IMG/VR virus record: IMGVR_UViG_3300009553_000013
Coordinates: 1 to 36,764 of that record
From: a virus
Direction: 5' to 3' (one strand)
DNA: 36,764 bases
The number at the start of each line of letters is the position of its first letter. Position 1 is the first letter of the stretch. Positions 21,939 through 27,738 of the stretch are shown in pieces. The notes beneath the pieces were generated by a model. That model saw only the letters and a list, made by a program, of their open reading frames with translations. It was not told the origin of the DNA and searched no databases. The position numbers were made by a program, and so were the translations under genes.

Positions 21939-22110
21939 GTGCTCCGGCGGTTCCGGTGGTGCACGACTTGTGGGCTAAGCGCCTTAACAGCTACCCGTGA
22001 CTCTCCGTGACCGCAAGATACCTTCTAGAAACTCGGCCGCAACTGACGCTTTCCTTCCGTGACTGACCGTAAAATGTCACCCACGTCCACGAATTAATAA
22101 CGTGCGGCAT
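21939..22110. promoter_or_regulatory. Divergent switch region with CCGTGAC operator-like repeats
   Basis: The gap between the excisionase-like gene (minus) and the repressor-like gene (plus) is AT-richer than its surroundings. CCGTGAC occurs at 21995-22001, 22005-22011 (10 bp apart, one helical turn) and 22057-22063, with a related GACCGTAA just after the third. TAAG-CGC-CTTA (21976-21986) is a short inverted repeat. An AT-rich ATTAATAA stands just before the repressor start and may be its -10 element. This is the expected place for repressor operators and the early promoter. Confidence 0.55.
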
Positions 22111-22503
22111 ATGCCGTCCCGCCAAGGCTCGTTTGCACGCTCGCTCATCGACGAGCGTGACGGACGGCTGGCCAAGGACCTCGACGCAGCGATCGGCTGG
22201 TACAACGGAAAGACCGCGAAGCTGATCGCGCAGACGATCAGAAACGGGCGTGTGCCGCATGTCGACGACGTCACGAGGATCGCGGCCGCGCTGCAGACAC
22301 CGACAGATCCGGTAGAGCTGCTGATCGCGTTCGCGCGGGACGCCGGACTGCGCACCAGTGGCGAGAACCTCGGCCGCGCCCTCACTCTCATCGCGCAGAC
22401 GCGGCGGCTGACCCACGCCGAGCGGGCCACGGTCCAGCAGGTGACCGATCAGATCGTGGCGCAGTTCAACGCCAGCCGCGCGGCGCGGCGCCGGCGGCGC
22501 TAG
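22111..22503 (+). CDS. Repressor-like HTH protein (putative immunity repressor)
   Basis: A 130-residue protein on the opposite strand to its neighbours. After SRQGSFARSLIDERDGRLA comes a helical region with KTAKLIAQTIRNGRVPHVDD and VTRIAAALQTP, laid out like a Cro/C1-type DNA-binding fold, then a helical second part and a very basic end (ASRAARRRRR). Its position between integrase and an excisionase-like gene fits a lysogeny repressor. No ribosome site is visible; ATG 22111 lies 10 bases after an AT-rich hexamer, so a leaderless mRNA is likely. GTG 22102 is an alternative start. Its stop shares the CTAG at 22500-22503 with the integrase stop. Confidence 0.65.
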   Translation: MPSRQGSFARSLIDERDGRLAKDLDAAIGWYNGKTAKLIAQTIRNGRVPHVDDVTRIAAALQTPTDPVELLIAFARDAGLRTSGENLGRALTLIAQTRRLTHAERATVQQVTDQIVAQFNASRAARRRRR

Positions 22504-23645
22504 ACCGCGAGCGCGGCCCGGACCGCCCGGGCGCGGGCGCCGTCATCGGCCGCGTGCAGGTACCGGCCGGTGGTCCGCTCGTCGGCATGGCCCATGAGCA
22601 CGGCGATCTCCTTGCGCGGCATGCCGGCCGCGGCGAGGCGGGTGCCGTAGGTGTGGCGCAGGTCGTGGTAGCGGGGCTGCGGGTCGGCCAGGGCGGCAGC
22701 GGCGCGGGCGGGATACCACAGGTCGCGCCGCCAGTTGTCGTAGCCGAGTTGCCGCCCGGTCTTCGATGTCGCGAACAGCAGCCCGCCCAGTCCGCGGGCC
22801 GCGGCCGCGGACTCGACCGGCGCGGCAAGCGCAGCCACGACACGGTCGGTCAGCGGGACCTTCCGGGCGCGGTGGGACTTCGGGTAGCCGCGAACCATGC
22901 CTGAGTGGCGTTCCACGACCTGGCGGACGGTGACGAATCCGGAGTCCAGGTCGACATCGAGGGCGGTGAGGCCGGCGGCTTCGCCCCACCGCAGCCCGGC
23001 GTCGAGGCCGAGGAGGAAGAACAGCTGGCCCTGTTCGGTGCCGGCGAGCAGGAGGCGGGACTCTTCGGCGCGGGTGAGGGTGCGGTCGGGGCGGATGTCG
23101 CCGGTGGGCAGCGGGATGCCGGCGGTCGGGTCGCGCCAGACGAGCTCGTTGACGAGGGCGTCCCGGTAGATCATCCGGAGGACCTTGATCGCGAGGCGCA
23201 CGGTGTGCAGCGCGGTGTCGTCCTCGTCGAGGTCGGCGAGCCAGAGTTCCACGTCGGCGCGGCGGACGAGGTCGAGGCGGGCGCGGCCAAGGGGGCCGGT
23301 GGAGATGGTGGCCACGGCGCGGCGGTAGTTCCCGGCGGTGGCGCCGGTGATGGTGCGGGAGCGGCGGTTGAGCCAGTCCGCGGCCTGGGCGGAGACGACG
23401 GGTGCCCGGCTAGCGCGGGGCCGTTCGGGTTCGCGCGGCGCGGCCGTATGGGCGCGCTCGGGTGGGGTGCCGGTGGCGGTCGTGGCGACGTCGCCGGCGC
23501 GGTCGAGCCGGTCGAGGGTGTCGGCGATGAACTGCTCGGCCTCATACCGGTAGTCGAAGGTCTTGCTGATCGACTTGCGCCCGGCGGGGCGGACGATGCC
23601 GCGGTGGCGGCCGGACGGGAGGGTATCGATGTAGGCCCGGGGCAT
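22500..23645 (-). CDS. int: Tyrosine integrase
   Basis: A 381-residue site-specific recombinase. The N-terminal arm-binding part (about 1-50, RPAGRKSISKTFDYRYEA) is followed by a core-binding SAM-like domain (about 85-175). The catalytic domain holds Arg 219 (DAGLRWGEA), Lys 256 (YPKSHRARKVPL), His 327 and Arg 330 (HDLRHTYGT), His 353 (MGHA) and the nucleophile Tyr 362 (TTGRYLHA). All catalytic residues are present. It should join attP, located just upstream of it (23833-23874), to a tRNA-Ala gene. An inverted repeat at 23666-23684 stands between its start and that core. Confidence 0.95.
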   Translation of the reverse strand: MPRAYIDTLPSGRHRGIVRPAGRKSISKTFDYRYEAEQFIADTLDRLDRAGDVATTATGTPPERAHTAAPREPERPRASRAPVVSAQAADWLNRRSRTITGATAGNYRRAVATISTGPLGRARLDLVRRADVELWLADLDEDDTALHTVRLAIKVLRMIYRDALVNELVWRDPTAGIPLPTGDIRPDRTLTRAEESRLLLAGTEQGQLFFLLGLDAGLRWGEAAGLTALDVDLDSGFVTVRQVVERHSGMVRGYPKSHRARKVPLTDRVVAALAAPVESAAAARGLGGLLFATSKTGRQLGYDNWRRDLWYPARAAAALADPQPRYHDLRHTYGTRLAAAGMPRKEIAVLMGHADERTTGRYLHAADDGARARAVRAALAV

Positions 23646-23741: not shown

Positions 23742-24093
23742 CGTGTGGCAACGTGTGCCACACGCTCTTCCGAGCGCACTTCCATGATCACCGCAAGTGG
23801 CTACAGCCCCCGGAAAACGGGGCCTCTAGCCGTGGAGCTGAGGGGACTCGAACCCCTGACCCCCACACTGCCAGGACAGTCTGCCGCCCCCAGTTCTTGG
23901 GGATGGTTGTTGCTTTCCCCAACAGTTTACGGCCATTCGGGGTCACGCGACACTCGGCGCGGACGGCCGGAACGCGGCTTTGCCACACGCCGCCACACGC
24001 CGCGGTATGACCCCCACACCGGATCCTGAGCGGCGCCCCGCCCTCGGTGTCGCAGCAACTTGGACCGCATCCCCCACACGCGAAATGTGGGGG
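23742..24093. repeat. Clustered CCACAC-type repeats and hairpin around attP
   Basis: CCACACG or its complement occurs at 23742-23748, as CGTGTG-C-CACACG at 23752-23764, at 23983-23989 and 23993-23999 (10 bp apart), at 24014-24020 (CCACACC) and at 24074-24080. TGACCCCCACAC is found both in the core (23857-23868) and at 24008-24019. CCCCCACA (24071-24078) and TGTGGGGG (24086-24093) form an 8-bp hairpin. Together with GGTGTCGCAGyAACT (23664-23678 and 24046-24060) these are probable integrase and excisionase arm sites. Confidence 0.55.
23833..23874 (-). other. attP: attP core: 3' half of tRNA-Ala(GGC)
   Basis: Read on the minus strand this is a clean tRNA 3' half. It has the anticodon loop CTGGCAG (U33, anticodon GGC, A37), the 3' stem TGTGG, a 5-base variable loop, a T arm AGGGG-TTCGAGT-CCCCT, acceptor CAGCTCC and discriminator A. 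The sequence before the anticodon loop does not pair, so no whole tRNA is present. Integrative phages carry such 3' halves so that insertion restores the host tRNA. The alanine identity follows from the GGC anticodon. The core lies 188 bp upstream of integrase. Confidence 0.85.
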
Positions 24094-24214
24094 CGATGCG
24101 CCCGACAGCGCCTCGGTGTGGCCCCCCACCCCCGACGCCCCGCGCGGCGTTCCCGTCAGTGGCGGCGATGCGTCGCAGCTACATGCTGGGCGATCTGGCT
24201 CTACCATCCCTCGG

Positions 24215-24931
24215 GTGCTGTTGTGCTTCGTTGACGAGTCGAACCGTGGCGATTTCTACGGTTTCGCTGGCCTAATGGCGGATGAGAATGCCACCAAGTC
24301 CCTCACCGATGCATTGAGCAGGATCGTTGCGCAAGCGGTTGTCGACTACGGCGTCCCCGACTCGGCCGAGATTCACGGACACCCGATCTTTCACGGCAAG
24401 GAAGATTGGAAGGACGTGCCCACAAGAGCGCGGATCAACGTCTTCAATCGAGTGCTGGAGGCAATCACTGATGCCGACGTGACGATCTTGCTTCGCGGCG
24501 TGCATGCCGACCGGTTACGTGCCCGCCAGGCTCGGGAGAACTACCCGGTCAACTTCCCTCCCGAGCAAGTGTGCTTCCAGCACATCTTGCAGCGTGCTGA
24601 CCAGGTTGCGAGGCAGAACCGCACCTACGCGCTGATGATTGCCGATGATCGCAGCGACCGAGACCGGCATCGGGAGCGGTTCGCTACCTACCAGACCATG
24701 GGAACGCCCGGAGCCTACATGCGCAGCACGTTGAGCCACCTCCTAGACACGGTTCACTTCGCGCCCAGTCACCGCTCACGCATGCTCCAAGCCGCAGACA
24801 TACTCGCCTTCACCTACCGCCGTCGCATGACTGTGGCCGAAAGCGATCCGCGAGCTGAGCGAATCATGGATCGGCATTGGACCCGGATCACGAACTGCGG
24901 AAAGGTCTACGACCGAGGTACCTGGCCGTAG
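24215..24931 (+). CDS. DUF3800-family protein
   Basis: A 238-residue protein on the plus strand. Near the N-terminus LLCFVDESNRGDFYGFAGL gives the family DES motif. SAEIHGHPIFHG gives the E-x-H set, LMIADDRSDRD a central acidic set, and SRMLQAADILAFTYRR the late Q-x-AD motif. These residues suggest an RNase H-like metal site. GTG 24215 is chosen because TACCAT (24202-24207) fits a -10 box placing transcription start at or near the GTG, a leaderless start. A terminator follows. The biological role of DUF3800 is not settled; cargo or exclusion roles are possible. Confidence 0.8.
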   Translation: MLLCFVDESNRGDFYGFAGLMADENATKSLTDALSRIVAQAVVDYGVPDSAEIHGHPIFHGKEDWKDVPTRARINVFNRVLEAITDADVTILLRGVHADRLRARQARENYPVNFPPEQVCFQHILQRADQVARQNRTYALMIADDRSDRDRHRERFATYQTMGTPGAYMRSTLSHLLDTVHFAPSHRSRMLQAADILAFTYRRRMTVAESDPRAERIMDRHWTRITNCGKVYDRGTWP

Positions 24932-24963: not shown

Positions 24964-25069
24964 AAGGCGATGCGGGCGGCAGTTCCCTGCGGCCTGCATC
25001 CATGACCGTAGCATCGGCGTCCGACACTGCGGGTTAGGCCCGCCTACGGGAGTGGTCGGTAATACACTG

Positions 25070-25138
25070 TGGACCGGGCGGGGATCGGACCCGCGAGGAA
25101 TGCTTCCAGAGGCGCTCCCGGCAACCATGCCCCGGCCC
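25070..25138 (-). tRNA. tRNA-like element (degenerate or partial)
   Basis: On the minus strand, GGGCCGG (25138-25132) pairs with CCGGTCC (25077-25071) as a 7-bp acceptor with discriminator A. GCGGG-TCCGATC-CCCGC (25094-25078) forms a T arm, although C replaces the usual U55. CTGGAAG could be an anticodon loop (GGA), but its flanks do not pair, the D arm is poor and the whole is only 69 bases. It lies alone between two terminators. It may be a decayed tRNA, a second attachment-type fragment or another structured RNA. Confidence 0.3.
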
Positions 25139-25189
25139 ATGTAGCGTCAGGAACGACGTGTGAGCGCACGCCGCCCTGGCCGCCGCTTG

Positions 25190-25243: not shown

Positions 25244-25966
25244 TCATGACGCACCGCCCTCGTTCGAGACGGAAGCCGCGGCGGGAGTGCGCAGCGAGGT
25301 CTCCAGTCCGATCAGCCGCTCGATGCGGTCGAGCAGATCGGTGTCGGTCGCCCCCTCAGTCTTGGCCTTCTCGAGCAGCAGGTCGAAGTACATCCGGCGC
25401 ATGTCATCGGTCGGTGCCTGCGGAGGGGTTACCGGGTCGGCCGAGGGCGCCGTCGTGGATGTAATTGGCGTCTTCGGTTTCCGGACGCTCGCACGAGTCG
25501 TCCCTGCTGCTTTCGGCCGAGGTCCGGGGGCCTGCTTCGGGGCCGCCGCGATCATCTTCGCGTAGGCCATCAATCCCGTGAATAGGGTCACCATGCGGGC
25601 TCGCTGGCCTGACGGCGCGAACCCGCGGAATGCGTCCTCGATCTCCGTAACCGAGGCCGTCGTCGGATCGACCACCGAGAACACGGGCGCGTACACGTCA
25701 CGGATGAGGTTCGCCAGCGCGCTCGGTAGATCCCCCATTGGGGCCTTCCGAATCGCCTCGAACTCGTCCGTGGGTTTGCCGGCGTCGTCGATGAGGTCGA
25801 GCAGTTTCAACGCTTGCACCGTGCGCGGGGCGAGCGACTGGGTCACTCCCATACGGACGAGCGTGTCCGTCGTGATCGCGGGCAGCCCCACCTGCCGGTG
25901 GCGCTCGATGACCGAGACCACGGCCTTGACCGGGGCGTAGGGCGCCGCTCCATCCATCTGTAACAT
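25244..25966 (-). CDS. DUF5343-family protein
   Basis: A 240-residue protein from ATG 25966 with GAGGAG five bases upstream. The first about 140 residues are a winged-helix-like helical domain: YAPVKAVVSVIERHRQVGLP, MGVTQSLAPRTVQALKLLDL, IDDAGKPTDEFEAIR and a late GQRARMVTLFTGLMAYAKM. This matches my memory of the DUF5343 profile. Then comes a Thr/Ala/Pro/Lys-rich linker and a short helical end (MYFDLLLEKAKTEG). It is divergent from a HicB-like gene, with a shared inverted repeat. The family function is unknown; DNA binding and a cargo role are inferred. Confidence 0.75.
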   Translation of the reverse strand: MLQMDGAAPYAPVKAVVSVIERHRQVGLPAITTDTLVRMGVTQSLAPRTVQALKLLDLIDDAGKPTDEFEAIRKAPMGDLPSALANLIRDVYAPVFSVVDPTTASVTEIEDAFRGFAPSGQRARMVTLFTGLMAYAKMIAAAPKQAPGPRPKAAGTTRASVRKPKTPITSTTAPSADPVTPPQAPTDDMRRMYFDLLLEKAKTEGATDTDLLDRIERLIGLETSLRTPAAASVSNEGGAS

Positions 25967-25977
25967 CAACACTCCTC

Positions 25978-26065
25978 GTGGACAGCAACTGCACGGCGGC
26001 CGCGGACGGCGATGCAACCGATCGTAACACGACGGAAAGTTCTTCATCGGGTTATTGCTGTCCAC
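25978..26065. promoter_or_regulatory. Divergent promoter region bracketed by an 11-bp inverted repeat
   Basis: GTGGACAGCAA (25978-25988) and its exact complement TTGCTGTCCAC (26055-26065) lie 66 bp apart between the DUF5343 gene (minus) and the 64-residue gene (plus). The left arm almost touches the DUF5343 ribosome site and the right arm lies 25 bp before the plus-strand ATG. A regulator binding both could repress both genes or form a loop. No clear -10/-35 boxes could be fixed. Confidence 0.55.
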
Positions 26066-26089
26066 CTGGGTACAGCGCACGCTGGAGGC

Positions 26090-26284
26090 ATGATCGAAGC
26101 AGCGACGACGGACGATGTGCCCGTCTTAACCGAGACGCCGGGCGGCTGGCTGGCCGTGTCTCCGGGTGACTTCCCCCGAATCGGTGTCATCGCGCCGACC
26201 ATCCCCGAGGCTGAACGCGATTACCGGGCGGCGCGAGACGCTTGGCGCGCGTGGCGCAACTTGCCCGAGCCGCACGGCACCTGA
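26090..26284 (+). CDS. HicB-like small protein, 64 residues
   Basis: ATG 26090 has a GGAGG almost touching it, closer than usual, so GTG 26117 is an alternative start. The protein reads LTETPGGWLAVSPGDFPRIG, then IPEAERDYRAARDAWRAWRN. A small beta hairpin plus a helix after 'P-x-x-EAE' recalls the HicB-type antitoxin half-domain. No HicA partner is seen beside it. It is divergent from the DUF5343 gene. HicB similarity is visual only. Confidence 0.55.
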   Translation: MIEAATTDDVPVLTETPGGWLAVSPGDFPRIGVIAPTIPEAERDYRAARDAWRAWRNLPEPHGT

Positions 26285-27315: not shown

Positions 27316-27738
27316 ATGCTCGCTCGAATGCCTGTCTGGCTGGTGCTGCTCGTCTCCGCCGCGGTCGCCGGCGTCCTCCTCGCCGTGGTCGTGACCGTGG
27401 ATCAGCTGGGCCCGGCGATGAAGGACGTCGGGGCCGTGGCGAGGGCTGAGGGCCACGGGCAGACCGGGGGCACCCAGACTGTCGGCGCCGCCTCGTTCGT
27501 CATGCCGGACGAGGTCGGCAAGAATCTCCAGGACGCCCAGGACCACATGCAGCTGGTGTCGGGCAATGACGGCTTCTACACCGGATCCGTGGACGCCACC
27601 GGCCAGGGCCGGGGCCAGTGGCTCGACCGGGGTTGGCAGGTGTGCAACCAGAACGTCGCGCCCGGTACTCGGGTGTCGGCCGACGACACCGGCGTCGTGT
27701 TCTCCGTGGTGCGTGTCACGGAGTCCTGCCAGTACTGA
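27316..27738 (+). CDS. Membrane-anchored PASTA-domain protein
   Basis: A 140-residue protein on the plus strand. Residues 6-28 form a membrane anchor or signal (VWLVLLVSAAVAGVLLAVVV). A linker follows, and residues about 60-139 form one PASTA-like domain: FVMPDEVGKNLQDAQDHMQ, WLDRGWQVCNQNVAPGTRV and VVFSVVRVTESC. PASTA domains bind muropeptides in bacterial kinases and penicillin-binding proteins. In a phage it is probably expressed by the prophage to alter host surface or signalling, or to block superinfection. Start ATG 27316 shows no clear ribosome site. It is divergent from the GH26-like gene. Confidence 0.75.
   Translation: MLARMPVWLVLLVSAAVAGVLLAVVVTVDQLGPAMKDVGAVARAEGHGQTGGTQTVGAASFVMPDEVGKNLQDAQDHMQLVSGNDGFYTGSVDATGQGRGQWLDRGWQVCNQNVAPGTRVSADDTGVVFSVVRVTESCQY

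Follow-up and report, generated by a model that had tools for sequence, protein, structure and literature searches.

Which role may be played by a divergent pair of genes, one encoding a protein of the DUF5343 family and the other a protein of 64 residues, that a phage carries close to its putative attachment site? The window, that is, the whole stretch of DNA analyzed, is a complete virus record of 36,764 bp. Genes for a terminase, a portal, tail proteins, and an integrase mark the record as a temperate tailed phage of actinobacteria; the closest portals (52–57% identical) are those of phages of Propionibacterium, Arthrobacter, and Gordonia. The pair was recovered as the first-pass annotation had described it, with exactly 123 bp between the two ATG codons (Table 1). 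The open reading frame of DUF5343 begins with the ATG at 25966 and stops at 25244, and its score for PF17278, 66.9 bits, exceeds the curated family threshold of 27.

Table 1. Features of the pair and its surroundings; positions refer to the window, except for those of the L003 gene, which belongs to a Planctomycetota genome.
Feature	Position	Strand	Basis or remark
Tyrosine integrase	22500–23645	−	PF00589 E 6.9e-21
attP-like core	23832–23867	.	36-bp match and partial Rfam tmRNA match
DUF3800 gene	24047–24931	+	PF12686 E 1.9e-14; GC3 0.73
DUF5343 gene, 240 aa	25244–25966	−	PF17278 E 2.9e-18; PADLOC PDC-M34A E 6.3e-10
Divergent intergenic region	25967–26089	.	123 bp, ATG to ATG
Left repeat arm GTGGACAGCAA	25978–25988	+	Exact match; immediately upstream of the DUF5343 ribosome-binding site
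Right repeat arm (TTGCTGTCCAC on +)	26055–26065	−	Exact reverse complement; 24 bp upstream of the small gene ATG
Small protein, 64 aa, predicted HicB-like fold (beta-beta-beta-alpha), without DNA-binding domain	26090–26284	+	L003 homologue; AlphaFold2; VIA-align
L003 small gene, 75 aa	5560–5787	−	Immediate divergent neighbor of the L003 DUF5343 gene

The 36-bp attP-like stretch recurs almost unchanged at the ends of two Mycobacterium prophage records and in one Tsukamurella phage, and it falls inside a region that partially matches the tmRNA (ssrA) 3′ end in Rfam; thus, it is most likely an attP core of the tmRNA 3′-end type. Such a core points to insertion into ssrA of an actinobacterial host. 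The pair and the DUF3800 gene are placed between this core and the arm of GH26, tail, and lysis genes. The GC3 values were 0.82 and 0.78 for the genes of the pair and 0.73 for the DUF3800 gene, versus 0.89–0.95 in the core phage genes. The lower GC3 of the pair fits acquired cargo and, together with the position beside attP, suggests that the pair and the DUF3800 gene are att-linked cargo, which agrees with the cargo role first proposed for the pair. In Propionibacterium phage B3, the equivalent slot, the holin–integrase interval, is occupied by two different small genes. Toxin/immunity genes and some toxin-antitoxin and defense loci have been described beside the att sites of mycobacterial prophages, and several of these loci were found by RNA-seq to be expressed in lysogens (PMC8092301). 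The phage pair resembles them in being a small accessory cassette beside att, on the opposite side from the integrase; however, it contains no genes homologous to that cargo.

Several other features of this region were noted. A gene of 133 aa (22102–22503, +), convergent with the integrase gene, had a weak match to the phage transcriptional repressor family phrog_12831 and is a candidate immunity repressor. Between the DUF3800 and DUF5343 genes, a tRNA-like cloverleaf (25066–25142, −) was observed, with an 8-bp acceptor, a 5-bp T-stem, and the loop UCCGAUC; it received no ARAGORN call, its stability was not above that of shuffles, and it is possibly a decayed tRNA or the remnant of an old attachment site. 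A small gene at 27316–27738 (+), with a weak PASTA-like match and a hydrophobic N-terminal stretch, is surrounded by a tail/lysis arm that is otherwise on the minus strand.

Linkage of the two genes in other genomes had been set as a test of the pair. When approximately 85,000 species genomes were scanned with the phage DUF5343 protein, the sole close relative confirmed was that of the Planctomycetota MAG L003, with 54% identity over residues 17–151. The adjacent divergent gene of L003 encodes a homologue of the 64-aa phage protein (BLASTP E 2e-4) with the shared pattern GxWxAxS...I.PT...AE..Y....AW; none of 20,000 shuffles scored as high, and the neighbor ranked first among the 109 ORFs of the locus. 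The divergent pair was thus found again in a distant genome with both of its proteins homologous, and the small reading frame of the phage is counted as a gene because of this homologue. Since order, orientation, and homology are the same in an actinophage and in a Planctomycetota contig, a chance juxtaposition is unlikely. The view that the DUF5343 gene and the small ORF are unrelated and became neighbors by accident could draw on the number of loci, two alone, and on tblastn searches with both proteins, canonical DUF5343, and the C-terminal tail, which gave nothing credible in 50,697 phage and 72,556 plasmid records. Nevertheless, the rank of the L003 neighbor and its exactly syntenic divergent position make such an accident very improbable.

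In the viral contigs, no homologue was confirmed with the queries used (the proteins, the alignment, two degenerate DNA patterns, the HTH-like neighbor in L003, GH26, and the integrase); these searches relied on exact peptide or DNA patterns, which reach close relatives alone. When a profile built from both small proteins was run over 392 Planctomycetota genomes, L003 alone was retrieved, and the two weak hits that were inspected resembled noise. Actinobacterial genomes were outside the search, so that the rarity of the pair in the databases is no sign of rarity in nature.

Phage structural genes were not evident on the 42-kb contig of L003, and this copy of the pair appears to be located in a chromosome-like stretch. 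In L003 (4608–5563, −), the small gene overlaps an HTH-like gene without a family match, which in turn overlaps a gene with a weak zinc-finger match; the small gene heads this run of overlapping genes, an operon that may belong to a larger module there. A larger cassette could also be proposed for the phage, with DUF3800 as the effector and the pair as its control element, given that the DUF3800 gene lies in the same low-GC3 stretch that extends from attP to the lysis/tail arm. This is highly unlikely, since reading by eye the ORFs that surround the L003 pair revealed no DUF3800 gene, and since the gene of the phage is on the strand opposite DUF5343 and separated from it by strong hairpins. 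The DUF3800 gene thus seems to stand outside the conserved pair; with a strong hairpin 3′ of it, it is likely a separate item of att-linked cargo.

PDC-M34 is a putative defense candidate of PADLOC that comprises PDC-M34A (DUF5343) and PDC-M34B (Swt1-like HEPN). The PDCs are computational candidates obtained by “guilt-by-embedding,” most of them without experimental validation (PMC12988326), and the HEPN toxins of conflict systems have been reviewed (PMC3710099). In the sample of 392 Planctomycetota genomes, DUF5343 matches were detected in seven, to which a class-level search added L024; the match in L019 was under the family cut-off. At six other DUF5343 loci (L009, L014, L015, L016, L020, and L024), the adjoining gene was HEPN or HEPN-like. 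In L014, L015, L016, and L020, DUF5343 is located directly upstream of a co-directional Swt1-like HEPN gene with R-x4-H, and the HEPN proteins of the latter three match PDC-M34B, up to E 2e-69. The partner gene in L024 is Hypoth_Ymh, which matches HEPN-containing defense models, and the one in L009 has a weak match to DUF4145, which overlaps HEPN. In L017, DUF5343 is fused to a protein-kinase-like domain (1486–2859, +) on the contig shared with the DUF5343–HEPN pair of L020.

The match of the phage protein to PDC-M34A was far weaker than those of canonical members (1.8e-71 and 1.5e-73). Its identity to canonical DUF5343 proteins was 13–20%, versus 38% to the L003 protein in the same comparison, and both proteins share the segment DAFRGFxPSGQxxRMVTLFxGL, which was unseen in canonical members. 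The phage and L003 proteins appear to form a separate branch without HEPN. No match to the PDC-M34B HEPN was obtained at E ≤ 1 across the whole virus record, with two control genomes matching, and none at E ≤ 0.01 in the L003 genome, in a search without a positive control. Thus, the phage pair resembles PDC-M34 in its DUF5343 domain and in its match to the PDC-M34A model (E 6e-10), but the record has no HEPN/PDC-M34B, the partner is divergent rather than co-directional, and its DUF5343 belongs to a distant branch with another C-terminal tail. The initial statement that no system with this pairing had been described needs to be narrowed: DUF5343 does have a described context in PDC-M34, and it is for the HEPN-less branch with a HicB-fold partner that no description was found.

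The AlphaFold2 model of the phage DUF5343 protein, built from eight sequences, is helical and mostly confident over residues 10–143, with pLDDT mostly about 90 in the N-terminal domain. A winged-helix-like domain (approximately residues 10–77) and a second helical domain (to approximately 143) are predicted to be followed by a disordered linker rich in Pro, Lys, and Thr (pLDDT < 50) and by a C-terminal helix (207–221). Foldseek alone gave no significant match for this model or for that of the small protein, and a second look with VIA-align was the informative one. Residues 10–77 matched winged-helix regulators at Z 7.5 (OhrR), 7.3 (FtsK gamma), and 7.0 (BpsR); values of Z below 8 are suggestive only, yet winged helices filled nearly all of the top rows. 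The predicted N-terminal winged helix is compatible with a DNA-binding autoregulator, and the modeled protein, with its DNA-binding-like N-terminal domain and disordered tail, is shaped like many type II antitoxins. A role of this tail in binding the small protein was considered and dropped: the C-terminal tails of the phage and L003 proteins could not be aligned, and the tail, not being conserved across the two pair-bearing loci, is probably not the binder.

The small protein was modeled as beta-beta-beta-alpha with a pLDDT of 76.5. In VIA-align, its best matches included TTHA0281 (Z 5.9), HicB3 (5.6), and E. coli HicB (5.2), with unrelated dsRBDs close behind at about 5. Neither of the small proteins, from the phage or from L003, matched a HicB family in Pfam, NCBIfam, PHROGs, or PADLOC. 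The designation “HicB-like” in the first-pass annotation can therefore be read only as a statement on the predicted fold, with modest Z values, and found no support in any profile search. Compared with the HicAB type II toxin-antitoxin system, the phage protein has a predicted fold with modest matches to the HicB antitoxins (Z 5–6); however, it has no C-terminal DNA-binding domain, and its divergent partner is DUF5343, with no HicA adjoining. According to Pfam, the neighbors of the small gene are DUF5343, DUF3800, and GH26, and no HicA, a dsRBD-like toxin of about 60 aa, was found in the other genes of the window that were scanned, a subset of the ORFs. No catalytic motif was apparent in the small protein, so that neither gene is an obvious toxin.

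Each of the two proteins looks like the non-toxic half of a toxin system, and the usual toxin stands beside neither of them. This would suit an anti-defense function, in which an orphan PDC-M34A-like antitoxin and an orphan HicB-fold protein act as decoys neutralizing the HEPN and HicA toxins of the host. Such a function is clearly unlikely, because a decoy makes little sense in the chromosome-like stretch of L003, a branch so far from the canonical DUF5343 proteins would be a poor mimic, and the 64-aa protein does not match HicB in sequence.

The divergent gap presumably holds the promoters and operators of both genes; a consensus scan found no sigma-70-type promoter in it, and a terminator scan found nothing. 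The arms of the 11-bp inverted repeat are the sole two exact copies in the window. Read along each gene, TTGCTGTCCAC stands 11 bp before the ATG of DUF5343 and 24 bp before that of the small gene; the repeat reported earlier is exact, but its arms are set back from the two borders of the gap. When the gap was shuffled 3000 times with its dinucleotides preserved, one shuffle contained an exact inverted repeat of at least 11 bp, and of approximately 917 real segments of 120 bp from the window, 9 contained one this long. The excess over chance thus appears real but modest and, as real stretches also reach this length, is suggestive rather than strong. Copies with one or two mismatches were in surplus across the window (20 observed versus 7.9 expected), which is likely explained by codon usage. 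The repeat was absent from the divergent gap of L003; autoregulation through this putative operator, not conserved there, is plausible in the phage.

The winged-helix model, the divergent layout around a gap that contains an inverted repeat, and the HTH-like neighbor of the small gene in L003 would also suit plain regulation, the main rival explanation, in which a DNA-binding protein and a small cofactor regulate genes of the prophage or the host and take no part in toxicity or defense. We consider it rather unlikely, since the known context of the DUF5343 family is a partnership with HEPN and not metabolism or phage regulation, and since another gene of the phage, located beside the integrase, is repressor-like (phrog_12831).

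The analogy with PDC-M34 and the antitoxin-like shape of DUF5343 point to a toxin-antitoxin-like or defense module, and a partner-swapped variant of PDC-M34 is our best reading of the pair. We assign a probability of roughly 0.4 to the pair being an att-linked lysogenic accessory module that acts as a toxin-antitoxin or abortive-defense pair, in which DUF5343 binds DNA and the small protein stands in for HEPN. Such a module would presumably be expressed during lysogeny of the temperate actinophage. DUF5343 would be its antitoxin-like or sensor half, and its winged-helix domain would bind the divergent gap, perhaps at the GTGGACAGCAA arms, so that both genes are repressed. We infer that the small HicB-fold protein may be the dedicated partner of DUF5343, forming a complex with it and filling the place of the HEPN RNase of PDC-M34, and that the balance of the pair would be upset when another phage infects the cell or when the prophage is lost, setting free an effector activity on growth or on phages. 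Counted in favor of the module were the divergent pair in two phyla, the PDC-M34A match, the toxin-like HEPN pairing of other DUF5343 proteins, the antitoxin-shaped model, the HicB antitoxin fold of the small protein, the attP-side position, and the low GC3. Counted against it were the two loci alone, the repeat missing in L003, the differing tails, the lack of an obvious catalytic site, the modest HicB-fold matches (Z 5–6, with dsRBDs at about 5), and the perhaps larger module of L003.

A full-text literature search for the name DUF5343, part of the computational candidate PDC-M34, retrieved no paper. The association of DUF5343 with HEPN is already described as the candidate system PDC-M34, and what appears to be new here is the HEPN-less branch with a HicB-fold partner. 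It is doubtful that a winged-helix DUF5343 has traded HEPN for a HicB-fold protein of 64–75 aa, so that the two genes, after transfer, make up a system in its own right and a novel type of toxin-antitoxin or phage-defense module, present on a phage and in one Planctomycetota genome. A natural, phage-mobile variant in which a tiny protein takes the place of HEPN would allow what DUF5343 does, in DNA binding, as an antitoxin, or as a sensor, to be told apart from what the RNase does, and with two small genes and a tractable host background, the question is open to direct testing.
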